Positions 14,943 through 30,064 of a stretch of 64,000 nucleotides of DNA are shown in pieces (within the stretch, counting starts at the first letter, position 1; each line of letters starts with the position of its first letter). Under the pieces are notes generated by a model that was given only the letters and a program-made list of their open reading frames with translations, searched no databases and was not told where the DNA came from. Source of the stretch: Nocardia sp. NBC_00403 (lineage in GTDB: Bacteria; Actinomycetota; Actinomycetes; Mycobacteriales; Mycobacteriaceae); assembly GCF_036046055.1 (NCBI RefSeq), contig NZ_CP107939.1, positions 5,146,001-5,210,000 of the forward strand, read 5' to 3'. The position numbers and the translations under genes are program-made.

Positions 14943-14961
14943 TTAGCGGAGGCTAACCTTC
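14943..14961 (+). promoter_or_regulatory. IdeR/DtxR-type iron box upstream of the importer
   Basis: TTAGCGGAGGCTAACCTTC matches 14 of 19 positions of the established IdeR box TTAGGTTAGGCTAACCTAA, including the central AGGCTAACCT. It is 25 bases before the importer's start codon, so bound IdeR-Fe would block transcription or initiation. TAGCCTC and GAGGCTA 7-bp arms (14929-14955) form a further inverted repeat overlapping it. Iron repression of the importer is inferred from this match. Confidence 0.7.
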
Positions 14962-14986
14962 GAAGTGAACCGGGTGAGGTCGAGCG

Positions 14987-16516
14987 ATGGATTTGAATAG
15001 GCGTCAACTCTTCAAAGCAGGCCTCGGACTGAGTGCGATACTGGCGATCGCCGCCTGTGGAGATGGATCTTCGTCCGATGGCTCTGGTGGCTCACCTCAG
15101 CGCGGCGGCACGCTTCGTATCGGTGCAATCGGCAAATCATCCAAGACCGAGCGGGATCCTCACGCGACGATGAGCAATGAAAGCGATTTCCTCATCATGT
15201 CGCTCATCTATGATCCGCTGACGGTTCCCGGAACCGACCCGAACGTGGCCCCTCGGTTGGCGTCGAAGTGGGAATCCGATGCAGAGCAACGGAATTGGAC
15301 ATTCACGATCGCCGAGGGTGCCACCTTCCACGACGGTCGTCCGGTCACTGCCGACGATGTGGTGTGGTCGCTTCGGCGTCTGCGTGAGGTCGCGGGTGAA
15401 ACCAAGGTGCCTGTGTCGTCGGTCGATGACATCAAGCCGGTCGGCGCGAACGCGGTTGTGCTGACTTGCGCGGGTCCGAACAGCCAGTTGCCGTTGCTGC
15501 TGCGATTGATGACTTTTGCCGCCCCCAAGGGAACCACAGACTTCACCAAAGGCATTGGCAGCGGCCCATTCCGGCTCGAAAGCTACAACAATGGCAACGC
15601 CCGGCTGGTGCGAAATGACAACTGGCACGGCGGCGCCCCCTTGCTCGACGCTGTCGAAGTCACCCTGTTCGAGAGCCCTGAATCGATGGCCAACGCAATC
15701 ATGGCCGGGCAGATCGATGTCGCATCGAGTGTCGGCGCCGTCGCGGGGCGGACGGCAGAAGCCCGCAGTGACCTCCAGGTCATCCGCCGTCCGAATGATG
15801 TCGCGATTGTCATCGCGATGAGGACCTCCGACGGGCCTTTCGCTGATCCGCGCGTGCGGGAAGCGCTCCGTCTTGCCGTGGACCGCCCGGCGATGGTCGC
15901 ACAGGTGCTTTCGGGCTACGGCAGTGTGGCCAACGATATTCTGGGCACTGCTGATCCGACCTTCGACTCATCGATCGCGCAGCGAAAGCGCAATGTCGAT
16001 CGAGCAAAGCAACTGCTCGCGGATGCGAAGTTCGACACCGGAAGAACCTATCCGCTGGTCACGAAGCAGGAGGCCGCGGGTGAGGTGGAATCGGCGAAGG
16101 TGTTCGCGAGCCAGGCCAAGGATATCGGGCTGAATATCGAGGTGGTCGTCCAAGAAGCGAACGCTTTCTACGATGACACCTGGCTGAAGGCCCCGTTCTA
16201 CACAGTGAACTGGGGCACCAATGACTCGGTCATGTTCTTCGCCAGCAAGGTCATGTCGTCGCGGACGAAGTGGAACGAAACCGGCTTCAAGGATGCGGAG
16301 TTCGACAAAGCCTACGCCGACGCACTCGCCGCGCCGGCAGGCGCGAAGTTCACCGAGGCGAGTAAGGCGATCCAACAGATCCAGTACGACCGTGGCGGTT
16401 ACATCGTGTGGGGCATGGCGGATGGCATCGATGTTGCGTCCCGTTCAGTTCAGGGTCTGCCGAAGCTAGGAGGATACGGCCGAGTCCAGCTCGAACGCGT
16501 TTGGTTGTCGAGTTGA
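14987..16516 (+). CDS. ABC importer substrate-binding lipoprotein (SBP family 5)
   Basis: A 509-residue extracellular binding protein of the dipeptide/nickel/metallophore class. The N-terminus has a NRRQLF twin-arginine-like motif and the lipobox AIAAC, with lipidation expected at Cys24, then a Ser/Gly linker. Family signatures are the RGGTLRIGAIG opening, a YDPLT segment, the domain motif FHDGRPVTADDVVWSLRR, and a C-terminal domain with VREALRLAVDRPAMVAQVLSGYG. It is first in a four-gene operon whose other members are two permeases and a double ATPase. The upstream iron box and the facing diaminopropionate-type operon suggest it captures a metal-metallophore complex rather than peptides. Confidence 0.9.
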   Translation: MDLNRRQLFKAGLGLSAILAIAACGDGSSSDGSGGSPQRGGTLRIGAIGKSSKTERDPHATMSNESDFLIMSLIYDPLTVPGTDPNVAPRLASKWESDAEQRNWTFTIAEGATFHDGRPVTADDVVWSLRRLREVAGETKVPVSSVDDIKPVGANAVVLTCAGPNSQLPLLLRLMTFAAPKGTTDFTKGIGSGPFRLESYNNGNARLVRNDNWHGGAPLLDAVEVTLFESPESMANAIMAGQIDVASSVGAVAGRTAEARSDLQVIRRPNDVAIVIAMRTSDGPFADPRVREALRLAVDRPAMVAQVLSGYGSVANDILGTADPTFDSSIAQRKRNVDRAKQLLADAKFDTGRTYPLVTKQEAAGEVESAKVFASQAKDIGLNIEVVVQEANAFYDDTWLKAPFYTVNWGTNDSVMFFASKVMSSRTKWNETGFKDAEFDKAYADALAAPAGAKFTEASKAIQQIQYDRGGYIVWGMADGIDVASRSVQGLPKLGGYGRVQLERVWLSS

Positions 16517-17442
16517 TCGCCCTCACCGGACTGGTGGTGCGGCGGCTCGGACTGTTGATCGCACTGCTTGCAGTGGTATTCGTTGTGGTCGACCTGCTGC
16601 CGGGAAACGCGGCACGGGCCGTCCTCGGACGCGATGCGGGAGCGGATCGGATAGCGGCGAAGGAGCACGAGCTGGGATTGGACCGGCCGCTGCCGGTCCG
16701 TTTCTGGAACTGGTTCAGTGGGGCCGCTACCGGGGATTTCGGCACCACGGCCCGCGGGCAATCGGTGAATGAGCTGTTGGCGGCGAAGTTTCCACAAACC
16801 TTGCTGCTGGCATCGGTCGCGATGTTGGCCACGGTGGTGATCTCGCTGCTGTGCGGGTTGTGGTGGTCCGCGCGGCCTACCGGCTTCACCGCTCGCGTTA
16901 TGCAACCGAGCTCCGCCTTCGTCATCGCGGTTCCGGAATTCGTGGTGGCAACACTGTTGGTGCTGGTTTTTTCGCTGTGGCTGGATTGGCTGCCCGCGGT
17001 GACTTTCACCGACCGCTCCGGATATCCGGCGAGCCCGGAGATGCTGATCCTGCCAGTTGCGGCCCTGGCGATACCACAGGCGGGCTGGAATTCGAGGGTA
17101 GTGCGTGGCGCGTTGATCGACGCGGCCGCCGCACCACATGTGGAGAGCGCCGTTCTGAATGGGCTCCCGGAAAGGACTGTCCTACTCCGTCACGTCCTGC
17201 CGTTCGCGTTACCCACGATCGCAACGTCTTTCGCAACCTCGGTCGGTACGTTGTTCGGCGGCGCTCTCGTTGTGGAGACGATATTCAACTATCCAGGGAT
17301 GGGCGCCATGGTGGCGGGATCTGTCTCCGACCGCGATACCGCGCTCGTAGCGGCAGTCGTGGCAATGACCGGAACAACGATCATGTGCGTCTTGCTGCTG
17401 GCCGATGCCATTCGTGCCTGGGCTAATCGAGGTCGGCGATGA
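16513..17442 (+). CDS. ABC importer permease (DppB/OppB type)
   Basis: About 309 residues with six predicted helices, of the BPD_transp_1 family. The N-terminal helix LLIALLAVVFVVVDLLPGN and the cytoplasmic EAA-like loop LNGLPERTVLLRHVLPFALP, followed by ETIFNYPGMGAM, are typical of DppB/NikB. I place the start at a TTG overlapping the binding-protein stop (TTGA); GTG and TTG codons nearby are alternatives. The stop overlaps the next gene by ATGA. It forms the membrane channel with the following permease. Confidence 0.88.
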   Translation: MIALTGLVVRRLGLLIALLAVVFVVVDLLPGNAARAVLGRDAGADRIAAKEHELGLDRPLPVRFWNWFSGAATGDFGTTARGQSVNELLAAKFPQTLLLASVAMLATVVISLLCGLWWSARPTGFTARVMQPSSAFVIAVPEFVVATLLVLVFSLWLDWLPAVTFTDRSGYPASPEMLILPVAALAIPQAGWNSRVVRGALIDAAAAPHVESAVLNGLPERTVLLRHVLPFALPTIATSFATSVGTLFGGALVVETIFNYPGMGAMVAGSVSDRDTALVAAVVAMTGTTIMCVLLLADAIRAWANRGRR

Positions 17443-18245
17443 CGACCTCGACCACCTCCCGGAGGCTGTGGCCGACGGTGTTACCCGCGGCCGCGGTTGT
17501 CACCGTTGCGATAGTCGGACCCGCGCTCGCGCCGCACGCAGTCGATCATGCGGTCGGTATTACCTTCGAGAAGCCCAACAGCGCGGCCTGGCTGGGTGGC
17601 GATCGGCTCGGCCAAGACGTCACGAGCCAGTTGTTGCGTGGCGGCTGGGGACTGCTGCTGCTGGGCGCGATCATCGCCCTGTTGGTGACCGCGTTCGCCG
17701 CGATCCTCGGATCGATAGCAGCGCTGCATCCGAGAACCGGGGCATGGATCGAACGCACCGCCGATCTGGGCATGCTGTTGCCGCCGGTGTTGGCGATCCT
17801 GCTATTTATGCTCTCCTGGCCCGAATCCGGAGCCGTGGGTTTGGTGGTCGTATCGGTGATCGCGGGTACACCGTATTCGGCGCGAGTGTTCGCAGCGGCG
17901 GCGACCGGAGTGGCGGCGTCGGGCTTCATCGAAGCGGCGCAGGCACGCGGAGAACGGTTGAGTTACCTCATTTTTCGAGAGCTGCTCCCGAACCTGCGCG
18001 AAACACTGCTCACTCAATTGGGCCTACGATTCGTGGAGGCGATGTACCTCGTGAGTACTGCGGCGTTCCTACAGCTGCCGACCACCCTCGGAGACGCGAA
18101 CTGGGCGGTGATGGTCCGCGAGAACGCCTCCGGGATCCTGCTGAACCCCGCCGCGGTGCTGGCGCCGAGTGTGGCGATCGGTCTGTTGGCGGTCAGTGTG
18201 AACAGCGCCGTTGCGGCGTTCGGGCGTGGGCGGAGCAGCGTATGA
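17439..18245 (+). CDS. ABC importer permease (DppC/OppC type)
   Basis: A 268-residue second permease with about six helices, starting with an N-terminal helix TVLPAAAVVTVAIVGPALAPH. WLGGDRLGQDVTSQLLRGG is the conserved periplasmic segment of DppC/NikC (GTDxxGRDxxSR in typical members). The EAA loop is EAAQARGERLSYLIFRELLPN. Its ATG overlaps the previous stop, and its stop overlaps the ATPase ATG, so all four products are made in step. Confidence 0.88.
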   Translation: MTTSTTSRRLWPTVLPAAAVVTVAIVGPALAPHAVDHAVGITFEKPNSAAWLGGDRLGQDVTSQLLRGGWGLLLLGAIIALLVTAFAAILGSIAALHPRTGAWIERTADLGMLLPPVLAILLFMLSWPESGAVGLVVVSVIAGTPYSARVFAAAATGVAASGFIEAAQARGERLSYLIFRELLPNLRETLLTQLGLRFVEAMYLVSTAAFLQLPTTLGDANWAVMVRENASGILLNPAAVLAPSVAIGLLAVSVNSAVAAFGRGRSSV

Positions 18246-19687
18246 CGACTGGGGTGCAGGTCGAGGATCTCACGATCCATTCGTCGTCGGGTGCGGTATT
18301 GCTGGCAACGACGTCGCTGTGTGTTCCCCAAGGCTCCGTCACGGCGTTGACCGGTCCATCCGGAGCGGGGAAAAGCACGCTGATGCGTGCGGTGCTCGGC
18401 CACCTTTCCAGCGGTACGACTCGATCGAGCGGTTCGGTGCGGGTCGCCGGACAGGATGTGTTCGCGCTGAGTCCCGATGCGTTGCAGTCCTTCCGCCGCG
18501 GGCACATCGCTTTCGTGAGCCAGGATCCGGGTGCCGCGCTGAATCCGACAATGCGGGTTCGGTCACTGCTCAGAGAAGCGGCGAACCATTCCAGAGATGC
18601 CGATCTGGGTACCGTGCTCGCTCGCGTCGGGCTGCCCGAGCACTGTCTGCATCGGCGTCCTGGCGAACTGTCCGGTGGTGAACAGCGACGGGTCGCGCTT
18701 GCGCTCGCGCTGGTCCGCAAGGTTGGTGTCCTTGTTGTTGATGAGCCTATCGCCGGGTTGCATGGGGAGCTGCGGAACGGGATAGCGGAGCTGCTACGTT
18801 CGCTGGCCACCGACGATGATGTCGCGGTGGTGGTTTCGGGCCATGACACCAAGGTTCTGCACCGGCTCGCGGATGACGTGGTCGCGCTGGGCGAGCCACA
18901 GGTGGGACTGCTGGAGCTGGCGACGCGGCCTTCGGATCCCGTGGTCGCGGGGCCGCCCGCCCTGCAGGCGCACGCGATATCCGCAATGGCGGGTCGCAGA
19001 AGGCTACTGGCATCGGTCGACCTCAGTATCGGGGCCGGGGAATCGGTCGCAGTCGTCGGGCCGTCGGGCGCGGGGAAGACCACGTTGGCCCGAGTGCTGG
19101 CCGGTATCCATTCCGCGGCGTCGGGCACTCTCGAGGTGGATGGACGCGAATTGGCTGTCGGGCGCGCACGCCGATCTCGCCGCGACCGGAGGCGAGTGCA
19201 GCTGATCCCGCAAAACCCGCTGTCCACACTCAACCCGAAGCAGACTGTGTTGCAAGCGCTTTCGCGACCACTGCGGCTCAGCGGGATGACCGGAAAGGCT
19301 GAGGTCGCTGATCGCGCCGCACGTCTGCTGGGCAGTGTGGAGCTGGACGCCGATCTGTTGGGTCGATATCCGGACGAGCTTTCCGGCGGTCAGCGGCAGC
19401 GCGTCGCGATCGCGCGCGCGCTCGCCACTGAACCGGATGTACTCATCTGCGACGAGATAACATCGGCACTCGATACCAGCACCGCTGAATCGATCATGGA
19501 GTTGGTGGAGCGAACTCGAATCGCACGGGGGATCGGCGTCCTGGTCGTCAGCCACGACATGGCAGTGGTGGCCAGGTATTGCCGCCGGATCCTTGTCCTT
19601 GCGGACGGAATGGTTGTCGAGCACGGAGACACCGCGGGGGTGCTGGCAGACCCCAGCGCACCTCAGACGAGGGCGCTGCTGGTCTGA
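18242..19687 (+). CDS. ABC importer, fused dual ATPase (DppD-DppF type)
   Basis: A 481-residue protein with two ABC nucleotide-binding domains in one chain. The first has Walker A GPSGAGKST at 38-46, signature LSGGEQ at 143-148 and Walker B LVVDEP around 164-169. The second has Walker A GPSGAGKTT near 275, signature LSGGQRQR and Walker B LICDEI. In most Opp/Nik systems these are two polypeptides; the fusion occurs in several metallophore and dipeptide systems. The second Walker B ends in DEI rather than DEP. It energises uptake through the two permeases. The gene ends 13 bases from the end of the convergent amidinotransferase gene. Confidence 0.9.
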   Translation: MTTGVQVEDLTIHSSSGAVLLATTSLCVPQGSVTALTGPSGAGKSTLMRAVLGHLSSGTTRSSGSVRVAGQDVFALSPDALQSFRRGHIAFVSQDPGAALNPTMRVRSLLREAANHSRDADLGTVLARVGLPEHCLHRRPGELSGGEQRRVALALALVRKVGVLVVDEPIAGLHGELRNGIAELLRSLATDDDVAVVVSGHDTKVLHRLADDVVALGEPQVGLLELATRPSDPVVAGPPALQAHAISAMAGRRRLLASVDLSIGAGESVAVVGPSGAGKTTLARVLAGIHSAASGTLEVDGRELAVGRARRSRRDRRRVQLIPQNPLSTLNPKQTVLQALSRPLRLSGMTGKAEVADRAARLLGSVELDADLLGRYPDELSGGQRQRVAIARALATEPDVLICDEITSALDTSTAESIMELVERTRIARGIGVLVVSHDMAVVARYCRRILVLADGMVVEHGDTAGVLADPSAPQTRALLV

Positions 19688-19700
19688 GCGCGGGGCGCGA

Positions 19701-20861
19701 TTACCCCGAGAAGTAGTCCTCCAGCCCGCCTTCGCGGACGGTGTCCACTGTGAAGCAATGGAATCCACCGCCGAAGAGCCGACGGTGGCGATGCTGGACC
19801 GGTACCACGGTCATTCTGTTCGCCTCGAGGAGTTCGATGAGTTCGGTGTGCGCCGAATTGACAAGCACGGTCTCGGAGTCGATGGACAGCAGGTTCATGT
19901 CGATGAACTTGCTGGTGAGCACCAGATCGTTGTCGTCGTAGCTCGGGAAGCCGTCTGCTGCCGGTTCGGGATAGTAGATGCGGTCCCATTTCTGCAGCTC
20001 GACGGGCAGTTGATCCACGATCTCGGGCGAGCGCGCCAGCAACAGTCCGGGGCGAAGCGGCAATACGGTGCTGTCGATGTGATCATCGCTGAGCCGGTAG
20101 AGCCGATGCAGTCGGAAGCGACCTTCGAACTGCCGGACCAGCCATTCGAAGGCGAGCTGGTGATGAGCTGTCGACACATTGACCAGGACATCCTCGCCGA
20201 AGCGCAGTATCTGCGCGGCATCCATCATCATCTCGAAGCCGACGTGATACGGCGAGTCGTCGGGACGGCCGACCGGTGCAAGCGGCTCGTCGGCCGAACC
20301 GGTGCCTTCGACATAGGAGAAGTCGAACGATCCGTCGGTCATGAGTGGTCGCGGCATTACCGACCACCGGGCTCCCTTGCGGAAGTAGTCCATGAACACC
20401 GGTTTCAACAATTGGTTTTCGAAATAGCGCGAACGCATCATCGGTGGGGTCTCGACGATTTCATCGCCCATGATGACTACGTTGTCGCGTACGTTGAGTG
20501 CAGGGATCATTGCCGCCGACCATGCGGGAGTCTGTACCTCGGGGACCGTAGGTCCGATATCCAGTGGGCGATGAACCCGGACATGAAGGGATTCCAGCGT
20601 GCGGACGAGCCCTGCGATATCTTCGTTCAGTTCGTCGACATGGCGCTGCGAGATTCTGATTCTGGACCGTGTATCGGTCCCTGCCGGAGGCGAGAATGGT
20701 GGGTAGAGCCATGGCTTGCGTGCAAGGTCGTTGTCGCCGGAAATGTTCTCGTGAAGGAACATATCGAACGTCAGCTCGCGCTCGTGTGTGGTGTAGTTCA
20801 GCCCCGATCCTACAATTACCTCTCGGAGTGGCGACCATTCATCATAGCTATTCAGACGCAT
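19701..20861 (-). CDS. Amidinotransferase (arginine:glycine amidinotransferase family)
   Basis: A 386-residue member of the GATM/StrB amidinotransferase family, which moves an amidino group from arginine to an amine through a covalent cysteine intermediate. The opening YDEWSPLREVIVG is a hallmark. The catalytic cysteine is Cys369 in GGGFHCFTVDTVREG, with an acidic YDDNDLVLT segment before it. Related enzymes act in streptomycin, cylindrospermopsin and saxitoxin pathways. It is the last gene of the six-gene biosynthetic operon, 36 bases after the exporter gene. A guanidino-containing product, or a guanidino intermediate made from an amine such as diaminopropionate, is inferred. Confidence 0.88.
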   Translation of the reverse strand: MRLNSYDEWSPLREVIVGSGLNYTTHERELTFDMFLHENISGDNDLARKPWLYPPFSPPAGTDTRSRIRISQRHVDELNEDIAGLVRTLESLHVRVHRPLDIGPTVPEVQTPAWSAAMIPALNVRDNVVIMGDEIVETPPMMRSRYFENQLLKPVFMDYFRKGARWSVMPRPLMTDGSFDFSYVEGTGSADEPLAPVGRPDDSPYHVGFEMMMDAAQILRFGEDVLVNVSTAHHQLAFEWLVRQFEGRFRLHRLYRLSDDHIDSTVLPLRPGLLLARSPEIVDQLPVELQKWDRIYYPEPAADGFPSYDDNDLVLTSKFIDMNLLSIDSETVLVNSAHTELIELLEANRMTVVPVQHRHRRLFGGGFHCFTVDTVREGGLEDYFSG

Positions 20862-20897
20862 GTCGATCTCTTTCGTAAATCGGTGGATCTGGGTTTT

Positions 20898-22301
20898 TCA
20901 AACGAACGCGGCGGTGCGCGCGGGCTCTCGCTTGTGTAGGTCGCGGTCGAAACGCCGCAACAGCAGCGTCGCGGTGACCGCCAAGCCCGCACACAGTCCG
21001 ATCCACACTCCTGGACCGCGTAGACCGAAACCATAGGCGCAGGTCAACAGCACAGGTAGCCCGACGGCCCAATAGCCGACGAGGGTGATTCGAAAGCCGC
21101 TCTTGGTGTTGCCGAGGCCACGCAGAAGTCCGACACCAATATTCTGTGCGCAGTCCAAGAATTGCTGCACGACAGCGATGAAGAGAAGGGTCTTCGCCAA
21201 AGGCAGAACGTCCGCCGCCTCTGTTTGATCGAGAAAGGGGACAAGTACCAACCGGGGTGCCGCCACATATATGATGCCCACTGCGCCCATTACTGCGACA
21301 CCGAGGGTCAAAGCTATGCGGGCGGTACTTCTCGCTTCGTCGAGATCTCCCTTGCTGACCACTCGACTCACCAAGATGGACGACCCGTGCGAAAGGCCGA
21401 TGGTTACCTGAAAGACGATATATGTCAATTGGATGACTACGTTGTGCGCAGCCAGCACAGTCGGACCGAAACTCCCCATGATGAGTGCGGCGACAGAGAA
21501 AAGCCCTGCTTCTGATCCATATGTCAAGCTGATCGGGATCCCGAGTCGCAGGATCGCACGAACTGTTCTCAGATCCGCGCGCCAGCCCTGGATCGACAGC
21601 AATGGTGCAAGGTGGGTGTCCCTGCGGACGATCAGGAAGAAGGCACAGCATGTCGAGAGGTTGACAAAGGAGGTGGCACAACCGATCCCGGTCAACCCCA
21701 GGACCGGAAGTCCGAACCAGCCATAGATGAAGGCGCCGTTGATGGCTGCGTTCACCCCGACAGAGCCGATGGTGACCCACAGCAGTGATCCGGGTCTGCG
21801 CATGCCTACCGCGAATTGACGGAGCACGTTCAGCCACAACATCGGCACCAGACCGAACGCCAATGCCATCATCATCGGCCGTGCCAGTTCCAGAATGCGG
21901 GCGTCCTGACCGAACCATACGAGCGAGTAGCTCAGCGCGACAAGCGCACCTCCCGCGAGCAGACCGACGAAGGTCGCCACCAGAAATGCCGCACGAACGA
22001 CCTGGCGGATCTCCGATCGCGCTTGCTCGTCGAGTTGGTCGGTACCGGCGCGCGATTCCCCTTGGCCCACCGCGCCCGCCACCAAATTTCCGACCGCCGT
22101 CACCACACCCACACTCATCGTGCGCACCTGGTTGTACAGCGTTATTGCCAACCCACCCGCGGCGATCGCCTGCACACCGAGCAAGCCCATCATCGCGAGG
22201 TCCGTGGTGGTCAGTGCCACTTGCGCGAGTTGGATCCCCGCGATGGGGGCCGCGAGAGCGATCAACGGGCGACTGTCGCGCACACCGATCGCGAGGCTCA
22301 T
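20898..22301 (-). CDS. MATE family efflux transporter
   Basis: A 467-residue transporter with twelve expected helices in two homologous halves, of the NorM/DinF-type MATE family (cation-coupled drug and metabolite antiporters). The N-terminal PIAGIQLAQVALTTTDLAMMG matches the family's first helix region, and the halves repeat around VGVNAAINGAFIYGWFGLP and the C-terminal helices. Its ATG overlaps the stop of the PLP-synthase gene by ATGA, placing it within the biosynthetic operon. The likely role is export of the finished metabolite; the ABC importer next door would bring it back. Confidence 0.88.
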   Translation of the reverse strand: MSLAIGVRDSRPLIALAAPIAGIQLAQVALTTTDLAMMGLLGVQAIAAGGLAITLYNQVRTMSVGVVTAVGNLVAGAVGQGESRAGTDQLDEQARSEIRQVVRAAFLVATFVGLLAGGALVALSYSLVWFGQDARILELARPMMMALAFGLVPMLWLNVLRQFAVGMRRPGSLLWVTIGSVGVNAAINGAFIYGWFGLPVLGLTGIGCATSFVNLSTCCAFFLIVRRDTHLAPLLSIQGWRADLRTVRAILRLGIPISLTYGSEAGLFSVAALIMGSFGPTVLAAHNVVIQLTYIVFQVTIGLSHGSSILVSRVVSKGDLDEARSTARIALTLGVAVMGAVGIIYVAAPRLVLVPFLDQTEAADVLPLAKTLLFIAVVQQFLDCAQNIGVGLLRGLGNTKSGFRITLVGYWAVGLPVLLTCAYGFGLRGPGVWIGLCAGLAVTATLLLRRFDRDLHKREPARTAAFV

Positions 22302-23401
22302 GCCGGCGTCGATCGTGCCGAGGGCCGAGTCAACACTGACGAGCCGATTTCACTGGCATATTCATCGAGCAATTGTGCGACCTCCGCTTCTGCGACCGAG
22401 TTCAGCAAGTTCTTCTCACGCATCCAATCGTCATTGAAAATCGTGTCGAGATACTTTTCGCCGCCATCGCATGCGATGGTCACCATCGTGCTGCCGGGAG
22501 GAATTTCACGCAGCCGTTTCATCGCTACATACACTGCTCCACCGACCGAACCGCCGAGCATCAAACCATTGCGTCGCGCAACTGTGCGCGCGGTCGCAAA
22601 GGCGTGAACATCCGATACCTTAACCCCCTCGTCGAGGAGGTCGTAGTCGATGGTGCTGCCGATCGGGGCGCCGGGTGGAGTGCCGGTGCCGGACTGCCAA
22701 TACGGACCGCCCGGGCCACCGAATACGATCGAACCGGCAGGTTCGACACCGATCACCCTGACCGATGAACCGAGGCGACGCAGTTCACGCGCGGTACCGA
22801 ATAGAGAACCGCCGGTGCCTACCGAGCTGACCAGGTAGTCCACGTCGGTAGCAAGGTCTGCACGAAGTTCGTCGGCCAGCGCCCGGTATCCCCGCGCGTT
22901 GCTCGGATTGTTGTGCTGATCGAAGAAGTAGGCGCCCTCCTCCGAAGCGGCCAGTAGGGCGGCGTGCTCTTCACGTGCGGTCGGGCTCGGACCGTCGTCG
23001 CTGGTATCGGCGACGTAGACCAGCTGTGCGCCCATGGCGACCATCGCTCGCAATTTGTCCTTGGCCGAGTGATTGTCCACGACCGCGGTGAATCGGTAGC
23101 CACGCTCGGCGGCGACCACTGCGAGGCCTAGACCTGTATTCCCTGAGGTGGATTCGATGATGTGCCCGCCTGGCGGGAGCCGACCGTCCAGCTCGGCGTC
23201 GAGCACCATCTGTCGAGCCATCCGAATCTTTGCAGAGCCCGTCGGATTGAACTGCTCGAGTTTGAGTAGCAGCCGCGATCCTGAGCCGGTTCTGCACAAT
23301 TCGATGAGCGGCGTACGGCCGACCAGATCAGAGACACGCTCGGCGATGTTCTCGACTCGTTCTCCGGTACGATGATTTGTCGATTGCAGCGCATTATTCA
23401 T
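22298..23401 (-). CDS. SbnA-like PLP synthase (cysteine synthase family)
   Basis: A 367-residue fold-type II PLP enzyme. The PLP lysine is Lys58 in FNPTGSAKIRMA, and the substrate loop STSGNTG is at 84-90. A glycine-rich phosphate-binding loop SSVGTGGSL follows. Within the superfamily it resembles SbnA/VioB, which join O-phosphoserine and glutamate to give N-(2-amino-2-carboxyethyl)-glutamate on the way to L-2,3-diaminopropionate. The call rests on pairing with an SbnB-like dehydrogenase in the same operon. The ATG at 23401 overlaps the decarboxylase stop by 8 bases. An upstream in-frame start exists. A plain cysteine synthase is the alternative but would not need this partner. Confidence 0.85.
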   Translation of the reverse strand: MNNALQSTNHRTGERVENIAERVSDLVGRTPLIELCRTGSGSRLLLKLEQFNPTGSAKIRMARQMVLDAELDGRLPPGGHIIESTSGNTGLGLAVVAAERGYRFTAVVDNHSAKDKLRAMVAMGAQLVYVADTSDDGPSPTAREEHAALLAASEEGAYFFDQHNNPSNARGYRALADELRADLATDVDYLVSSVGTGGSLFGTARELRRLGSSVRVIGVEPAGSIVFGGPGGPYWQSGTGTPPGAPIGSTIDYDLLDEGVKVSDVHAFATARTVARRNGLMLGGSVGGAVYVAMKRLREIPPGSTMVTIACDGGEKYLDTIFNDDWMREKNLLNSVAEAEVAQLLDEYASEIGSSVLTRPSARSTPA

Positions 23402-24779
23402 GGCTGTGACCGCCCCCTCGATGTGAAACACCAGCGGACTCCAGTCGCCACCGGATGCGTTCCGGCGAGGTCGTGACGACGACCTTCGGTGGCAATGGCA
23501 ACTGATGGAACTCCGACTCGTTCGAATCCATTTGATAGCCAGCGGTATTCGGGTAGATCAACAGATCACCTCTGCGCGGGACACGATCGAATCGAATCTT
23601 GCGCCAGGACAACATATCTGTTTCGAGGCAACTCGAGCCGCCGACGCAGGCACTCGTCGGGGTGCTCGGCTCCTGCTGGGGCCAGAGCATCGGATCCGGC
23701 AGGTACTCGCTGGCAAACCATTGTTCGGACAAGCTCAAGCTGAGCCCGGACGCGGTGATGAACCCGTAGTCCTGTCTCGGCTTGTAGCCGAGGACAGGAA
23801 AGGCCGTGAAGCCGCAGCCATCGAGCAGTGCCCGGCCTGGTTCGATCAGCAATCGGGTACCGGTCTGCGCGAACTTGGCGGCGAGATCGGAATGCTCCGT
23901 GGCAACCGAGCTGCCGAGGATCGCCGAGAGCATCTCCGCGCCTGCGGGATTCGCGTGATAGGGGTAGAACCCGCTGAAGGTCTTCCGGGTGTGGAACCAG
24001 GAATCTTGATACTCGCTGAGGAACTGCTGCCAAGGACTCGCATCGACGTAGTCGACGGCGAATCCGCCGCCGATCGAAACCGAGTTGGCTGCAAGGCCTT
24101 TGGCTCGCGCGGCCAGGCACCGGTCGATCAGATCGGAGGCTTGCCATGCGCGCGGTGCGACGCTGTACCCGGTCAGATGAAAGGAGAAGCCTTCCATCCT
24201 CAGGTGTGCGCGATGCGCTACGCACCGGTCGATCGCAAGGTCCAGCTCGTTGTCGTTGAGTCCGAATCGACTGTTGGGGTTCGACGGCGGCAGGACTCGC
24301 AACAGAATGCGGACCGCTTCGCCCGCGTCGGCAATCGCGATCACTCGGTCGAGCTCGTCGAGCTCGTCGACCGTGATCAGGCAGCGATGGCGAGTGGCCA
24401 GCCACAGAAGATCATCGCTTTTGCTGGGCCCGGTGATCACCAGATCCTCGCCTCGAACGCCGTTGGCCAAAGCATGGATCAACTCCGGCGCGCTTGCGAC
24501 ATCCACTCCGGTGTTCGCCTCGGCACAGGCGCGCGGCCAGCACGCGGCTTTGTTGGCCTTCTTGCCGAAATACACCTTGCCGTCGACACCGGCAGTGACC
24601 ATCGCATCGACGAATGCCGCGAGATTCGTAGTGAACTGCTCGGGGTACACCACGTGAAATGGGCCGCCGCCTACCGCATTTGCCAAATCGGCGAGCAACG
24701 TCGGATCGGTTCGCACCCGAGTGACCCAGCCCAGTTCTTTTGCTGGGAGCGGCAGCGCGGCGGTCTCGGTCAGTTCCAC
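23394..24779 (-). CDS. Type III PLP-dependent decarboxylase (SbnH/Y4yA-like)
   Basis: A 461-residue alanine-racemase-fold (type III) PLP enzyme of the diaminopimelate/ornithine decarboxylase group. YFGKKANKA (71-79) holds the PLP lysine, GVDVASAPELIHAL the adjacent helix, SIGGGFAVDY the phosphate-binding glycine loop, and IEPGRALLDGCG a substrate/PLP contact. It is closer in pattern to Y4yA and SbnH, which act in small-molecule pathways, than to LysA. In staphyloferrin B synthesis SbnH decarboxylates a diaminopropionate unit to an ethylenediamine unit; a similar step is inferred here. It overlaps both neighbours by 8-10 bases. Confidence 0.85.
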   Translation of the reverse strand: MELTETAALPLPAKELGWVTRVRTDPTLLADLANAVGGGPFHVVYPEQFTTNLAAFVDAMVTAGVDGKVYFGKKANKAACWPRACAEANTGVDVASAPELIHALANGVRGEDLVITGPSKSDDLLWLATRHRCLITVDELDELDRVIAIADAGEAVRILLRVLPPSNPNSRFGLNDNELDLAIDRCVAHRAHLRMEGFSFHLTGYSVAPRAWQASDLIDRCLAARAKGLAANSVSIGGGFAVDYVDASPWQQFLSEYQDSWFHTRKTFSGFYPYHANPAGAEMLSAILGSSVATEHSDLAAKFAQTGTRLLIEPGRALLDGCGFTAFPVLGYKPRQDYGFITASGLSLSLSEQWFASEYLPDPMLWPQQEPSTPTSACVGGSSCLETDMLSWRKIRFDRVPRRGDLLIYPNTAGYQMDSNESEFHQLPLPPKVVVTTSPERIRWRLESAGVSHRGGGHSHE

Positions 24780-25747
24780 AGTCGCAGCTCCTGTCCACGG
24801 CCTTCTTCGATAGCGCGGATTGCCAGCGCATGCCCCACTGCGATGTCGGTGACGACCAGCCCACTGTTATATGCGAAGACCCGATCCTCCGGCGTCTTTC
24901 GCCCCAGGCCGCGGCCGGCGAGTATTTCCGGTAGCTCGGCGTCGACCGGACGTAGTGTCCCATCCGGACCAGCCAGATACTTCCCCGTCACCGCCAGCTG
25001 GCCCGCACTGGTAGCAATCGCGTAGTCGGAGTCCAGCAGTGCGGAGTCCGCGACGCCGTATCCGACGTCCACCAGTAGTCCGCCCGGCTTCAAGGAGTTT
25101 GTCCGTACCTTGACCGCCGTGGCTGGGCCAGAGGCGGCCAGCACGACGTCGGCGTCGAGTACCGCACCGGTCACGTCGGTGACCACTTCGATCGTCCGAT
25201 CCGGGTGGTGCTGGTGGAATACCTCCAGCACCGCGGCGATTCCAGCGTCATGGGTCCCGTAGAGCAACAGGCGATCCAAGTTCGGCAGCACCTCGAGCAG
25301 GTAGGGGAATGCCTGCCTACCCTGGGTGCCGGTCCCGATCAACAGCGCCGTCCTGGCGGCCGGTGCAGCGCTGGCCTCGACGAGAAGTGCAGTCGCGGCC
25401 GGTGTACGCAGCGACCCGATTCGAGCGCAGTCCATCAGCGCGATCGGAGCGCCGGAGTCGTCATCGTAGAGAGTGATAGTGGTGTAGTACTGCTTCTGTC
25501 CGCGTCCCTTCTCCTGCTTGTACGACGTTTTGAAGGCGACCACCCGTCGAGACCCGTCATAGCCGAGCATCGAATACGAGATCGAGTCTCGGTCCGGCAC
25601 GGGAAGCGCTATCTTGGCAGGGTTTCGAGACTGGCCTTGTGCGAGAGTCACGTAAACATCGCGCACCGATTTGATCACCTCGGCGGGTGTGATAGCTATG
25701 TCCGCCAGGTCATTGCGCGAGAGCACGCGCAGCGGTATGTCATTCAT
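24770..25747 (-). CDS. SbnB-like dehydrogenase (ornithine cyclodeaminase/mu-crystallin family)
   Basis: A 325-residue NAD-dependent enzyme with the glycine-rich loop GTGTQG at 138-143, YSMLGYDGSRRVVAFKTSY (58-76) and the family segment SLRTPAATALL (112-122). SbnB and VioK members oxidise N-(2-amino-2-carboxyethyl)-glutamate to release L-2,3-diaminopropionate and 2-oxoglutarate, so pairing with the SbnA-like gene supports diaminopropionate formation. Notably, the 2-oxoglutarate released is the co-substrate of the oxygenase encoded just before it. The ATG overlaps the oxygenase stop (ATGA). Confidence 0.87.
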   Translation of the reverse strand: MNDIPLRVLSRNDLADIAITPAEVIKSVRDVYVTLAQGQSRNPAKIALPVPDRDSISYSMLGYDGSRRVVAFKTSYKQEKGRGQKQYYTTITLYDDDSGAPIALMDCARIGSLRTPAATALLVEASAAPAARTALLIGTGTQGRQAFPYLLEVLPNLDRLLLYGTHDAGIAAVLEVFHQHHPDRTIEVVTDVTGAVLDADVVLAASGPATAVKVRTNSLKPGGLLVDVGYGVADSALLDSDYAIATSAGQLAVTGKYLAGPDGTLRPVDAELPEILAGRGLGRKTPEDRVFAYNSGLVVTDIAVGHALAIRAIEEGRGQELRLWN

Positions 25748-26754
25748 TTCGACTCCAAGGAGAGATAGTCGACCTGCTGGCCGTAGCCATTCTCGGTCAA
25801 CTCGGCCATCGGGCGCGGCCGATCCGGCATCGCGACATTTACCCGCTTGAGCCACCGGTCGGTGCCGTCGAATCGCGCGGTGAACGGGACGCGGCCGTGT
25901 ACAACCACGTCGTTGTCGATGATCGCGACGTCACCGGGCTCGAGCACGACACGACGAGTAACCCGCTCCAGTTCGCTTCCCAACCGCAGGTAGGCCTCTC
26001 GGTATTCAGGATCGGCGTCGGCCCACGGTGTGTAGTCCGGGTCGTAGCGCAGGCACAGCCCGTCCGAGCGTTCCCACAACGTAGGAATCGGATCTGCGGC
26101 TCCCCACTTCTCCGCGTCTCCATAGGTGAGATCCGGCAGGATCGGAATCGTTGGGCGCAAGAGTATTTCGTGGTCGGCAGCGGAGAGATTCACATCGCGA
26201 ACCGAGGCTATGGTCGTCGCGACACCGTCCGGGTTGCGAACGCAACCGAGAAGGAAGACGTGCGAGCGATGTGGATGAAAAGAATCTTCGGTGTGTGGGC
26301 TCAACAGAATCGAGCTGCTCGCCCCGGTCTGCACGCTCTCATACCCTCGCGCGGGCATGACATTGTTCACCAGCCGCCCCTCCTGCTGGCCTCGCCAGCC
26401 GAAAGGTTCGCCGATCATGCTGGCGAGCAACAACATTTGCAGATCCAACGGCAAACTGGCCGTGTCATCGATCGCTGCCCAGATCGGCGGAGTTCGGCCG
26501 ACCGATTGCTCATCGATGAGGAGCCCGCGGATTACACATACACCCCCGTCCGTGGCCGGTGGGCATATCTTCTCGCGCAGCTCACCCTCGATATTTGCTG
26601 CCAGTGTCGAGATCGCTTGCCGGCAGCGAGGATTGGACAACCCTCCGTATGCCGCAGCCAACGTCGTGCCCAGCTGATGCAAGAACACTTGCGAATTCGC
26701 GTTCAACATGCGCATTTCAAGTGATCGTATCTCGCTTTTTACAGCAATCGACAT
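25744..26754 (-). CDS. Clavaminate-synthase-like Fe(II)/2-oxoglutarate oxygenase
   Basis: A 336-residue oxygenase of the TauD/clavaminate synthase superfamily. The facial triad is His154 and Glu156 in SPHTEDSFHPHRSH, and His286 in DNDVVVHGRVPF; the 2-oxoglutarate arginine lies shortly after, near RWLKR. The HTE form of the motif and the following LLGCVRNPDG are shared with the amino-acid beta-hydroxylases VioC (arginine) and AsnO (asparagine). It probably hydroxylates a free amino acid or a small peptide. It is the first gene of the six-gene operon, with AAAGGGGAAG before its ATG and the iron box 142 bases upstream. Confidence 0.87.
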   Translation of the reverse strand: MSIAVKSEIRSLEMRMLNANSQVFLHQLGTTLAAAYGGLSNPRCRQAISTLAANIEGELREKICPPATDGGVCVIRGLLIDEQSVGRTPPIWAAIDDTASLPLDLQMLLLASMIGEPFGWRGQQEGRLVNNVMPARGYESVQTGASSSILLSPHTEDSFHPHRSHVFLLGCVRNPDGVATTIASVRDVNLSAADHEILLRPTIPILPDLTYGDAEKWGAADPIPTLWERSDGLCLRYDPDYTPWADADPEYREAYLRLGSELERVTRRVVLEPGDVAIIDNDVVVHGRVPFTARFDGTDRWLKRVNVAMPDRPRPMAELTENGYGQQVDYLSLESK

Positions 26755-27194
26755 CCTGAACTTCCCCTTTGCAGTGCCCTGCCCTGTAGAAGGACGCACG
26801 GTCGTTCGGCGATGCGCGGGAACGTGGTCGTGCACCCGGGCACGTGACCCACTCGCAAATCAAGAACGGGGTCGACCATAGCGGAGTACGGCGCGTTAGG
26901 CAAGGCATTCCTAAGCTCGGGTCAACCTGCTTAGATGTCCGAATTATGCACCCGCCCAGCGATGTTCGTGCAGACGATGACTCCTACCTCGGGGCGCTGC
27001 ATGGGTAGTCGGGGCCAAGTGCTGGCTCCAGTCGGTCGGGTCTGCCCCAGGCTCGCTTGGCCGCGGGGTCCGCGATGCGGCCCGCTCGGCGTCGGTCGCC
27101 TCTGAAGGACTCGTCGCCAAACGCCTCACAGTGACCGTGGCACCTGATATGCCGCCCACTCATTACAGCCCTGACGTTGTGTCACAATGCGCCG
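26755..27194. other. Divergent promoter region of the biosynthetic locus
   Basis: A 440-base region between the minus-strand operon and the plus-strand ligase. It contains an iron box at 26896-26914, and a CTAAGC/GCTTAG inverted repeat with a 12-base gap (26911-26934) just beside it. No gene is supported in it. Confidence 0.5.
26896..26914 (-). promoter_or_regulatory. IdeR/DtxR-type iron box of the biosynthetic operon
   Basis: TTAGGCAAGGCATTCCTAA matches 14 of 19 bases of the IdeR consensus, with perfect TTAGG and CCTAA ends. It lies 142 bases upstream of the oxygenase start and about 280 bases from the ligase start, so it could control both directions. Iron-dependent repression is inferred. 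Confidence 0.65.
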
Positions 27195-27482
27195 GTGCGT
27201 ATCAACGTGATCTGTGGCGGGGAGAGTGGCGAGCGAGATGTATCAATGTCTTCCGGTGCGGCCGCTGTCCAATCCCTTTGGAGATGGGGCATGAGGTCAC
27301 GCTCATCGACCTTGCGGCCGAATTGCCGATACTGGCGGGACCATTGCGGTTTCCAGCCGCACTTCCTCCCTATCATGTGACGAACAATCCGCCAGATATC
27401 GAGCAGCAGCGGCTATGGCGTCGCAACATCGCGGCGTCGCTGCTCGACGAGGAAGTCCTCGCGTGCCTAACATGACGCAGAT
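27195..27482 (+). pseudogene. N-terminal part of ATP-grasp ligase, two frameshifts
   Basis: Translation gives RINVICGGESGERDVSMSSG in one frame from a GTG at 27195. Similarity to the N-terminal domain of D-Ala-D-Ala ligases continues as MGHEVTLIDLAAELPI in a second frame from about 27282, then returns to the first frame near 27465 (HDADMTYVAVHGGWGEDG). The two shifts cancel. Together with the downstream frame the gene would have 357 codons, the usual ligase length. Either the gene is recently damaged or two single-base sequence errors are present. Confidence 0.6.
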
Positions 27483-28265
27483 ATGACTTACGTTGCGGTG
27501 CACGGCGGATGGGGGGAGGACGGGCATTTGCAGTCGTGGCTCGAAATGCTGGGTGTTCCGTTCACCGGCCCCCGCAGCGATGCCTGTTCTGCCGCATGGC
27601 ACAAGTCGCGAGCCCTTGCGATCCTTCAGGTCGCGTCCGTGCCGACGGCGCCCCGTGTTATTTATCGAGCGAATGATCCGGTTGCCGAGTCGGAGGTGCG
27701 GCGGATTCTCGGTGATGGACCGGCCGTCGTGAAGCCGGCGACTGGAGGCTCCAGCGTCAATATTTCTGCCGTTCGTGGAATCGAAGAGCTCCACTTGCTC
27801 GACGACTTGGCTGCATCGGAGGGGGAACTGCTTGTGGAGTCATACCTTTCCGGCAGGGAGTTCACGGTGGGAGTGTTGGGAGAAGAAGTATTCCCTGTCG
27901 TTGAAATACTGTTGGCATCTTCACTATTCGACTATCAGGCCAAGTATCAGATAGGTGCGGTCACTGAAGTGTGTCCCGCTGAGATATCCTCAGAATTTTC
28001 TGAGCAGTTGCAGGAAATTGCGATGCGCGCGCATCGAGCGCTGGGTTTTTGTCGGTACTCGTACTCCCGCATCGACTTTCGCTGCGACGCCGATGGAATG
28101 CCGGTGTGCTTGGAGGTCAACGCTCTTCCAGGCCTCACCCCGGGCAGCTTGCTGCCCTTGGCTGCGTCCAGGGTCGGATTGTCGTACTCGCAACTCACGG
28201 AACGCATCGTCGATCTCGGGGTGGGGAGAGTCGGTGGTGCTCTGGCTGTCAGGGCGCGTGGATGA
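27483..28265 (+). CDS. D-Ala-D-Ala ligase-like ATP-grasp ligase (C-terminal two thirds)
   Basis: A 260-residue open frame covering the central and ATP-grasp domains of a Ddl-family ligase. Visible are VAVHGGWGEDGHLQSWLE, the ATP-binding AVVKPATGGSSVNIS, LVESYLSGREFTVGVL, and the catalytic metal site CLEVNALPGLTPGSLLP. Ddl enzymes join two amino acids through an acyl-phosphate. A housekeeping copy is expected elsewhere, so this one probably makes an amide bond in the neighbouring metabolite pathway, as Ddl homologues do in some amino-acid antibiotic clusters. Whether it is active depends on the frameshifts in its 5' third. The ATG at 27483 is only the first start after the second shift. Confidence 0.75.
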   Translation: MTYVAVHGGWGEDGHLQSWLEMLGVPFTGPRSDACSAAWHKSRALAILQVASVPTAPRVIYRANDPVAESEVRRILGDGPAVVKPATGGSSVNISAVRGIEELHLLDDLAASEGELLVESYLSGREFTVGVLGEEVFPVVEILLASSLFDYQAKYQIGAVTEVCPAEISSEFSEQLQEIAMRAHRALGFCRYSYSRIDFRCDADGMPVCLEVNALPGLTPGSLLPLAASRVGLSYSQLTERIVDLGVGRVGGALAVRARG

Positions 28266-28329
28266 CACCGCACTGATCTGGCCATGACCTCATCGGCTCG
28301 TGCGGCCGTACCGTGAAGACACAGTCGTG

Positions 28330-28348
28330 TTAGGTTAGCATCACCTTA
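28330..28348 (+). promoter_or_regulatory. Third IdeR/DtxR-type iron box
   Basis: TTAGGTTAGCATCACCTTA matches 15 of 19 positions of the IdeR consensus, the best of the three in this locus, with an intact left half TTAGGTTAG. It lies 65 bases downstream of the ligase gene and upstream of a chain of very short reading frames, about 660 bases before the next clear gene. It may drive a small gene, a regulatory RNA or a lost gene. Confidence 0.65.
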
Positions 28349-28816: not shown

Positions 28817-29006
28817 TGCAGCGCTGCAAGTCGTGAGCACCGGTTCACCGTCCCCCAGCGGGCTGTGAACACGCTGAGCGGCCCAACGTCACCACCTGCG
28901 GGAACAGTCGATCCTATGAAAACTGAAGCACTCTTTCAGCGTGCTCTCAGCGGTGGGTTGTCATGCTACAGATCGGGTCGGTATCGCACTGACGAAGAGA
29001 GGATCG

Positions 29007-29873
29007 ATGGTGAACAACACTGCTCGCAGTCTGCTGGTCGACTACAAGCTTCCCCAGGTCACGGTGATGTTCTGGGTGCTCAAGATCGCCGCGACCACGC
29101 TGGGGGAGACCGGTGGGGACCTGCTGGCGCAGACGCTCGGGCTCGGCTACGCGCAGGCGTCGCTGTTATTTCTTGCCATCTTCATAGTCGGTGTGCTGGT
29201 CCAATTGCGAGTGCGCCGATTCCATCCCGCGCTCTACTGGACGGTCATCGCCGCGACCAGCACGGCGGGCACGACGATGTCGGACCTGATCAACAGGGGG
29301 CCCGGCTCGGACACATCTACCGACGGCGGACTCGGCTACGGCGTCGGCGCGATCATTCTCATCTCCGGATTGGTCACCGTCTTCGTGATCTGGAAGTTCA
29401 GCGGGCAGACGTTCGACGTCGCGAACATCACCACCGTGCGCGGCGAAGTGCTGTACTGGGCCGCGATCCTGCTGTCCAATACCCTGGGGACTTCCCTCGG
29501 CGATTATCTGTCCGATAGTTCGGGACTCGGATACTGGGGCAGCGCCATGCTCATCGCTGTCATCATGGTCGTCATCTCGGCCGCTCACTACTTCACCGGG
29601 CTCTCCGGTGTCCTGCTTTTCTGGATGGCCTTCGTGCTGACCCGCCCGCTCGGCGCGACTGCTGGCGACTGGCTGTCCAAACCACACGCCAGTGGTGGCC
29701 TCGCGCTCGGCACGTACGGAACTTCCGCGGCATTGCTGGCGATTCTGGTATTGGGGATTACCTACAGCTATCGAAAGAATCGTCGTACGATGGTAATCGA
29801 GCCGAGCGACGTCGAGTCTGCGCTGATCAATGGCAGCGACACTACGTCCGAGACTTCGGGGTCCAGGCGGTAG
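29007..29873 (+). CDS. COG4705 family membrane protein
   Basis: A 288-residue integral membrane protein with about eight helices, of the uncharacterised COG4705 family. Repeated motifs such as KIAATTLGETGGDLLAQTLGLGY, NTLGTSLGDYLSDSSGLGYWG and TRPLGATAGDWLSK show internal repetition (a T-x-G-x-x-GD unit recurs four times), suggesting four homologous helix pairs. The ATG at 29007 follows AGAGGA. The function is unknown. A second family member follows in tandem. The third iron box lies 660 bases upstream. Confidence 0.82.
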   Translation: MVNNTARSLLVDYKLPQVTVMFWVLKIAATTLGETGGDLLAQTLGLGYAQASLLFLAIFIVGVLVQLRVRRFHPALYWTVIAATSTAGTTMSDLINRGPGSDTSTDGGLGYGVGAIILISGLVTVFVIWKFSGQTFDVANITTVRGEVLYWAAILLSNTLGTSLGDYLSDSSGLGYWGSAMLIAVIMVVISAAHYFTGLSGVLLFWMAFVLTRPLGATAGDWLSKPHASGGLALGTYGTSAALLAILVLGITYSYRKNRRTMVIEPSDVESALINGSDTTSETSGSRR

Positions 29874-30064
29874 CGGTCTTTCGGACATGTACCAGATCCG
29901 CCACGAGTGGACTATCGGGCGGTGCGATCCTGTCGGGCTTGCCGGTGTTCGAGTCGTGGATCTTGTAGGGCATCGGTGTGCTGCGGCTGACCGCGGCCGG
30001 GCTGAATGCACGCGCCTTCGGCTCTCAACGTCTCTTCAGCGAGCTGTCGTTACAGTCCCGCGTT

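Follow-up and report, generated by a model that had tools for sequence, protein, structure and literature searches.

Iron boxes, an importer and a biosynthetic operon

We analysed a 64-kb window (the whole stretch under study) of the single-contig, 8.7 Mb genome of Nocardia sp. NBC_00403 (contig NZ_CP107939.1, positions 5,146,001 to 5,210,000), in which a metallophore-type locus was found without synthetases of the usual siderophore classes. Four importer genes on the forward strand (14987-19687, window positions) converge on six genes of the reverse strand (26754 to 19701). Family scans of the locus proteins against Pfam and NCBIfam at E 0.001 identified the Opp/Nik-type importer as a solute-binding protein (SBP, family SBP_bac_5), two BPD_transp_1 permeases and a single ATPase open reading frame (ORF) with two ABC_tran domains, whose gene sits within a longer ORF (17405-19687). 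The operon encodes, in this order, a TauD-type 2-oxoglutarate (2OG) oxygenase, an ornithine cyclodeaminase-type enzyme (OCD, family OCD_Mu_crystall), a type III pyridoxal phosphate (PLP) decarboxylase (Orn_Arg_deC_N), an SbnA-like enzyme (PALP), a MATE exporter (MatE) and an amidinotransferase. An earlier note made from the sequence had described both gene groups in this way, and the scans bear it out together with the alignments of the amidinotransferase. The operon had been called fully overlapping, which is correct for the five genes joined by overlaps but not for the amidinotransferase, which starts 36 nucleotides (nt) beyond the MATE gene.

The best NCBIfam matches of the oxygenase are GntD and VioC, both below cut-off. 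The OCD is the only OCD match of the genome at E 0.001, and the SBP is the sole close copy, the next match having 28-30% identity. No nonribosomal peptide synthetase (NRPS), polyketide synthase (PKS) or intact ligase was found among the locus genes scanned, and IucA/IucC (PF04183) has no match in the whole genome, in agreement with the earlier description of a locus lacking NRPS and NRPS-independent siderophore (NIS) enzymes. The amidinotransferase has no Pfam or NCBIfam match at E 0.001, but aligns over nearly its full length with the solved inosamine-phosphate amidinotransferase (7e-48), SxtG (9e-42) and L-arginine:glycine amidinotransferase (AGAT; 8e-42 to 2e-39). The Asp, His and Cys positions, which we take to be the catalytic residues, align with those of the solved enzymes, and this together with the fold-wide match assigns the protein to the AGAT/StrB kind.

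Iron boxes were scored as the number of matches to the 19-base IdeR/DtxR consensus. The earlier counts of 14, 14 and 15 for three boxes were reproduced, and these are the only sites of at least 14/19 in the 64 kb, where 100 dinucleotide shuffles gave 0.08 such sites on average and one at most.

Features of the locus in window coordinates, with the basis of each assignment
Feature	Position	Strand	Remark
IdeR/DtxR-type iron box	14943..14961	+	14/19; 25 nt before the first importer gene
Solute-binding protein, SBP_bac_5 (Opp/Nik type)	14987..16516	+	family scan
Permease B	16408..17442	+	family scan; true start probably further in
Permease C	17439..18245	+	family scan
ABC ATPase, two nucleotide-binding domains, NikD/NikE-like	18242..19687	+	two ABC_tran stretches; start inferred
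Amidinotransferase, AGAT/StrB kind	19701..20861	-	alignment to solved enzymes
MATE exporter	20898..22301	-	family scans
SbnA-like PLP beta-replacement enzyme (PALP)	22298..23431	-	family scans; own clade in SbnA tree
Type III PLP decarboxylase (LysA/SbnH kind)	23394..24779	-	family scans
Ornithine cyclodeaminase/mu-crystallin enzyme (OCD, SbnB-like)	24770..25753	-	family scans
2OG/Fe(II) oxygenase, VioC/GntD kind, two-aspartate motif DPD	25744..26754	-	family scan, alignments
Iron box	26896..26914	-	14/19; 141 nt before the operon
Frame-disrupted ATP-grasp (D-Ala-D-Ala ligase-like) gene	27195..28265	+	two internal stops in main frame
Iron box, strongest of the window	28330..28348	.	15/19 on +, 16/19 on the other strand

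An EDHA-type gene set and its boxes across Nocardia

The oxygenase beside an SbnA-like enzyme, an OCD, a decarboxylase and a MATE exporter resembles what is reportedly the make-up of the ethylenediaminesuccinic acid hydroxyarginine (EDHA) siderophore genes of Spohn et al. 2018. The EDHA gene set consists of an Opp/Nik importer, 2OG oxygenase, OCD, decarboxylase, SbnA-like enzyme and MATE exporter; the window holds this core with its oxygenase, the importer alongside and an iron box. The earlier note could not match the locus to a named pathway, a view that we replace by a very probable assignment to the aminopolycarboxylic-acid siderophores, here an iron-controlled member of the EDHA family. 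As the SbnA-like protein falls into a clade separate from 37 ordinary copies, we file the locus as a variant and not as EDHA itself.

Published accounts describe EDHA as an iron-responsive zwitterionic siderophore with homologues in S. avermitilis, Corynebacterium and N. brasiliensis, encoded in S. scabiei by an 11 kb cluster (scab_5231 to scab_5311) that antiSMASH did not detect. They also report a survey of 1450 EDHA windows, 328 of them from Nocardia, an aminopolycarboxylic-acid cluster of N. mangyaensis with a MATE gene and an iron-regulator site, and a detection rule for this metallophore class in antiSMASH 7.

We followed the gene set through the genus, a check that the earlier note had proposed. 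In a sample of 60 genomes, a close OCD relative was found in all 35 other Nocardia genomes (54-59% identity, best per genome), and weak relatives of at most 37% in 8 of the 24 genomes from other families of the order. By tblastn, oxygenase, OCD, decarboxylase, SbnA-like enzyme and MATE exporter stand in this order in 33 of 40 fetched stretches, one per genome, so that 33 of the 35 Nocardia genomes are represented; a contig edge cuts three of these loci (L031, L041, L049). The other seven stretches comprise two that start inside the OCD at a contig end, from the remaining two genomes, four paralogous clusters without an oxygenase, and one from another family with no match. In 14 of the 33 core loci the fetched stretch also contains the importer, oriented divergently to the operon. 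An oxygenase match at E 0.001 occurs in 149 of 150 same-genus genomes, which makes clusters of the EDHA type all but universal in Nocardia, though they have been little studied. In a class-wide sample, the oxygenase was matched with an E value of at most 1e-30 in 32 of 394 genomes. Ten stretches around oxygenase matches were fetched outside the genus, nine from genus g45, which we guess to be Streptomyces, and one from elsewhere; importer and core adjoin in seven of them (L261-L266, L268), all g45. The remaining three are a short contig (L267) and two lone EDHA-type oxygenases (L269, L270; 46-47% identical), whose core genes are not in the 20 kb fetched.

The boxes are conserved together with the genes. 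Searching 400 nt upstream of gene starts extrapolated from tblastn, we found a site of at least 14/19 before the oxygenase in 31 of 38 loci, with 13/19 in six and 12/19 in one whose upstream region runs off the contig, compared to 2.5% of 2280 control windows. Before the SBP, such a box was present in 17 of 17 loci versus 4.1% of 1020 control windows. The control windows were drawn from the same loci and may themselves contain boxes, which works against the result, and in divergent loci the oxygenase-side and SBP-side searches can return one shared site. The earlier idea of an iron-regulated export-and-reimport metallophore system is well supported at the sequence level, by gene families and box conservation.

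A different picture was obtained for the clusters lacking the oxygenase (L054-L057, L172; five genomes), which hold an OCD, decarboxylase, SbnA-like and MATE gene. When entire stretches were scanned, a site of at least 14/19 turned up in 32 of 33 ordinary loci but in none of these five, three of which have a 13/19 site. A Zur-like site matching at least one of three patterns at 12/15 or better occurs in four of the five versus none of four comparison loci, with an expectation of at most 0.1 each. The ethylenediaminedisuccinic acid (EDDS) zincophore is Zur-controlled and EDHA iron-controlled, a split that this pattern of boxes and Zur-like sites fits. The oxygenase-less paralogs are therefore probably EDDS-type zincophore loci in Nocardia.

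The amidinotransferase, the oxygenase pocket and a second locus

The earlier note listed the amidinotransferase and the oxygenase, without singling them out as the unusual part of the locus. The amidinotransferase is rare: relatives of at least 84% identity occur in three of 150 same-genus genomes, namely the window's own, G102 and G079 (N. aurea), whereas any match is found in 36, the next best at 55%. G102 carries the full six-gene operon, its proteins 79-88% identical to those of the window, with a divergent importer. In N. aurea (L169, L170) the five-gene core lies in one place and a second oxygenase stands directly beside the amidinotransferase elsewhere, each locus with its own iron-box-like site (14/19; 136 nt upstream of the pair), while an SBP 86% identical to that of the window lies at a third place. 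As the N. aurea pair stands together away from the core, oxygenase and amidinotransferase travel as a pair. All four variant oxygenase loci have a box 136-146 nt before the gene. The variant core proteins are about 46-71% identical to ordinary copies, and the SbnA tree separates the variant (3), the ordinary (37) and the oxygenase-less (5) copies into three clades, all supported at 100/99 or higher. No amidinotransferase in such clusters was found in the literature covered; the original EDHA reports lay outside its scope, and a prior description is possible.

The oxygenases that belong to this variant also differ in the predicted substrate pocket. In published structural work, Asp247/Asp249 of CmnC and Asp268/Asp270 of VioC hold the guanidino group of the substrate, the second of these positions being Tyr in OrfP and Ala in NapI. 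The window oxygenase keeps the iron ligands, the QQ motif and the first guanidinium Asp, and its DPD motif adds a second Asp at the position of VioC Asp270 and CmnC Asp249, so that it carries the two guanidinium aspartates of the VioC type. In a set that took in the best 30 of the same-genus oxygenase loci, and so a part of the 150 genomes, all four distinct variant oxygenases read DPD, whereas 66 of 67 distinct others read DPA and one, a lone gene, DPS. In the Nocardia alignment this position is one of nine fixed differences between four variant and 33 other sequences (Ala in 33/33). The remaining two specificity positions were readable in 70 of the 71 sequences of the wider set, and all 70 have Q and G there, as does OrfP. 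The variant pocket would thus provide one more acidic residue to contact a guanidinium group, confined to the amidinotransferase-linked copies. That DPD occurs in exactly those copies linked to a guanidino-making enzyme is our chief ground for thinking the substrate unlike that of ordinary EDHA. The family moreover provides a natural A/D comparison at a position that, as a published review proposes, could turn the VioC hydroxylase towards desaturation.

The genome holds a second locus at 8.47 Mb (L225, 8460000-8479999, 9871-15030) with an ordinary EDHA-type core and a box of 15/19. Its DPA-type oxygenase, decarboxylase, SbnA-like and MATE genes are all open. It has no OCD; at the expected place, the matches to oxygenase and decarboxylase are about 200 nt apart. 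The importer was not found within the fetched stretch. At the matching place of N. aurea (L226, 9502-10593) a lone ordinary EDHA-type oxygenase remains. It is an exception to the general pattern of boxed oxygenases, its best site within 400 nt scoring 10/19. Only one oxygenase match exists in G102. In the SbnA tree, the window copy belongs to the three-member clade and the genome's other copy to the 37 ordinary ones. The simplest history would be a separate arrival of the variant together with an ongoing loss of the ordinary locus; if true, stages of one siderophore locus replacing another are visible in related species.

To see where related amidinotransferases occur, neighbours were surveyed in 48 loci (46 of 77 relatives plus L168 and L174). 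In 21 loci there was a DpgA-type type III PKS, in 21 a PGM1-like ATP-grasp gene and in 12 both, these names coming from reading the sequences and not from a family scan; we take such clusters to be of the pheganomycin/resorcinomycin type. The amidinotransferases of L092-L130 (59-64% identical) lie in many cases in actinomycete clusters, next to genes that read as type III PKS, DpgB-D-like, aminotransferase or PGM1-like ATP-grasp. A separate Nocardia amidinotransferase family (L065-L072) is 46-52% identical.

Proposed pathway, alternatives and known systems

Taken together, the locus is probably an IdeR-repressed, amidinotransferase-bearing variant of the EDHA siderophore loci, for which we infer the catalytic steps, the iron response and the product from the enzyme families and boxes as follows. 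The SbnA-like enzyme would attach a three-carbon unit derived from phosphoserine to an amino acid, which is aspartate in EDHA-type products. The decarboxylase would convert the result to an aminoethyl (ethylenediamine) unit, after which the OCD would catalyse a reductive coupling of the free amine to a second acid. As no amide bond is made in this chemistry, NRPS, NIS or ATP-grasp synthetases would not be needed. The amidinotransferase would amidinate an amine with arginine as donor, giving a guanidino group different from the one in plain arginine, and the oxygenase would hydroxylate a guanidino amino acid, the hydroxyl helping to bind Fe(III). The chelator would leave through the MATE exporter and the ferric complex would be retrieved by the Opp/Nik importer.

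The amidinotransferase may supply the guanidino substrate of the oxygenase, a suggestion we make tentatively, and action on the finished scaffold after assembly seems unlikely. We lean slightly towards a product different from EDHA, which would then most likely be a congener with a changed guanidino residue. Speculatively, albeit not implausibly, the locus could represent a third aminopolycarboxylic-acid metallophore branch beside EDDS and EDHA, with an amidinotransferase-made guanidino group, hydroxylation by a DPD oxygenase, and an OCD and importer shared with a decaying EDHA locus. If true, the locus shows one siderophore pathway in the course of displacing another. One added enzyme and one fixed active-site residue also allow a direct test of how the guanidino arm of a chelator is tailored.

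Several observations weigh against the proposed variant pathway. A loose box pattern (up to two mismatches) gave 34 + 27 hits across the genome versus 87 + 87 for a reversed control. Single loose matches mean little, since the control gives more hits (174 vs 61), and the case for iron control therefore rests on position and conservation and not on the match alone, even though the site at 26896 is the pattern's sole mismatch-free hit in the genome. The operon box of G102 reaches merely 13/19, and its importer is only 58-59% identical to that of the window despite operons at 79-88%. The SbnA-like and SbnB-like proteins score 244 of 350 and 86 of 327 bits, under the NCBIfam equivalog cut-offs, and by these scans are relatives and not equivalogs, to which extent the earlier SbnA/SbnB labels hold. 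In N. aurea the core operon has no adjoining amidinotransferase, so that the enzyme could serve a different pathway there. Finally, the three variant amidinotransferases form their own long branch (99/100) at an unresolved fork, for which reason the acceptor cannot be read from the phylogeny.

The most probable alternative is a mosaic in which the 8.47 Mb locus lost its OCD and importer and those of the window serve both, yielding two chelators, EDHA and the variant. The open oxygenase, decarboxylase, SbnA and MATE genes at 8.47 Mb with their 15/19 box and no OCD suit this idea, as do the one OCD match and one close SBP of the genome. That locus may however be decaying, as in N. aurea, where the oxygenase is alone and unboxed within 400 nt, and we regard the mosaic as rather unlikely, although it is compatible with our preferred explanation.

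We consider it quite unlikely that ordinary EDHA is made and that the amidinotransferase is an accessory, for instance re-guanidinylating hydroxyornithine or feeding another pathway, with the product unchanged. The core genes are indeed those of the EDHA set, and N. aurea holds core and amidinotransferase apart; on the other hand, the pocket residue differs in all four variant oxygenases, the N. aurea amidinotransferase adjoins an oxygenase duplicate with its own box, and the genome under study has a separate EDHA-type set of oxygenase, decarboxylase, SbnA and MATE genes.

An antibiotic or other guanidino product under iron control, similar to viomycin, guanitoxin or pheganomycin, is very improbable: the oxygenase resembles GntD and VioC, and the nearest amidinotransferases by path outside Nocardia lie in type III PKS clusters, but the scanned locus genes include no NRPS, PKS or intact ligase, and core, exporter and iron boxes are conserved as a unit. 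Least probable of all is an EDDS-type zincophore under Zur control, as the four core enzymes common to the oxygenase-less paralogs with their Zur-like sites in four of five, and a 10-11/15 Zur-like string that precedes the oxygenase in most ordinary loci but lies on the gene's first codons, are opposed by the iron boxes, the presence of the oxygenase and a Zur score of just 8/15 before the window operon and importer.

The earlier note had listed a divergent ATP-grasp ligase with the operon. We reject this candidate, which is frame-disrupted, has a best same-genus relative of 47% identity and, by tblastn, no counterpart in 40 + 6 related stretches; it most likely stands outside the system. The stretch up to the second stop is partly ligase-like in another frame only, judged by eye; in the main frame, the segment 27195-28232 can be aligned to a relative at 41%. 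The gene is 34% identical to the other match of the genome, likely the housekeeping ligase. With this rejection, a Ddl-type enzyme joining 2,3-diaminopropionate (Dap) units lacks support. The box at 28330 lies after this gene and about 590 nt before a DUF347 ORF, the first of two DUF347 membrane protein ORFs (28941-31318) downstream of it. Further groups of close box matches in the genome (2158743-2161186, 1928689-1931824, 4846942-4854534 and 8476406-8476901) possibly mark other iron-regulated loci.

Among known systems, the staphyloferrin B pathway has homologous SbnA, SbnB and type III decarboxylase (SbnH) families, but staphyloferrin B or another NIS siderophore was rejected, with IucA/IucC absent from the genome and the SbnA and SbnB cut-offs missed. 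The window oxygenase shares the conserved residues named above with VioC, CmnC, OrfP and NapI, and at the specificity positions (Q, G, D) it combines Q and G as in OrfP with D as in VioC and CmnC, whereas EDHA-type copies have Q, G and A. A further system, the [S,S]-EDDS zincophore with what we take to be its genes in Amycolatopsis japonicum, has in common the ethylenediamine-linked aminopolycarboxylate logic and related core enzymes. It differs by its Zur control, also stated in a review, and, to judge from the oxygenase-less paralogs, by having no 2OG oxygenase or amidinotransferase. Closest is the EDHA cluster (MIBiG BGC0002567; Streptomyces sp. MA5143a, S. scabiei), whose gene make-up, as we deduce it, includes the same oxygenase, OCD, decarboxylase, SbnA-like enzyme, MATE exporter and importer, with an iron box and no NRPS or NIS enzymes; compared to it, the window locus adds the amidinotransferase, has DPD in place of DPA, and carries its importer convergent with the operon and not divergent from it.

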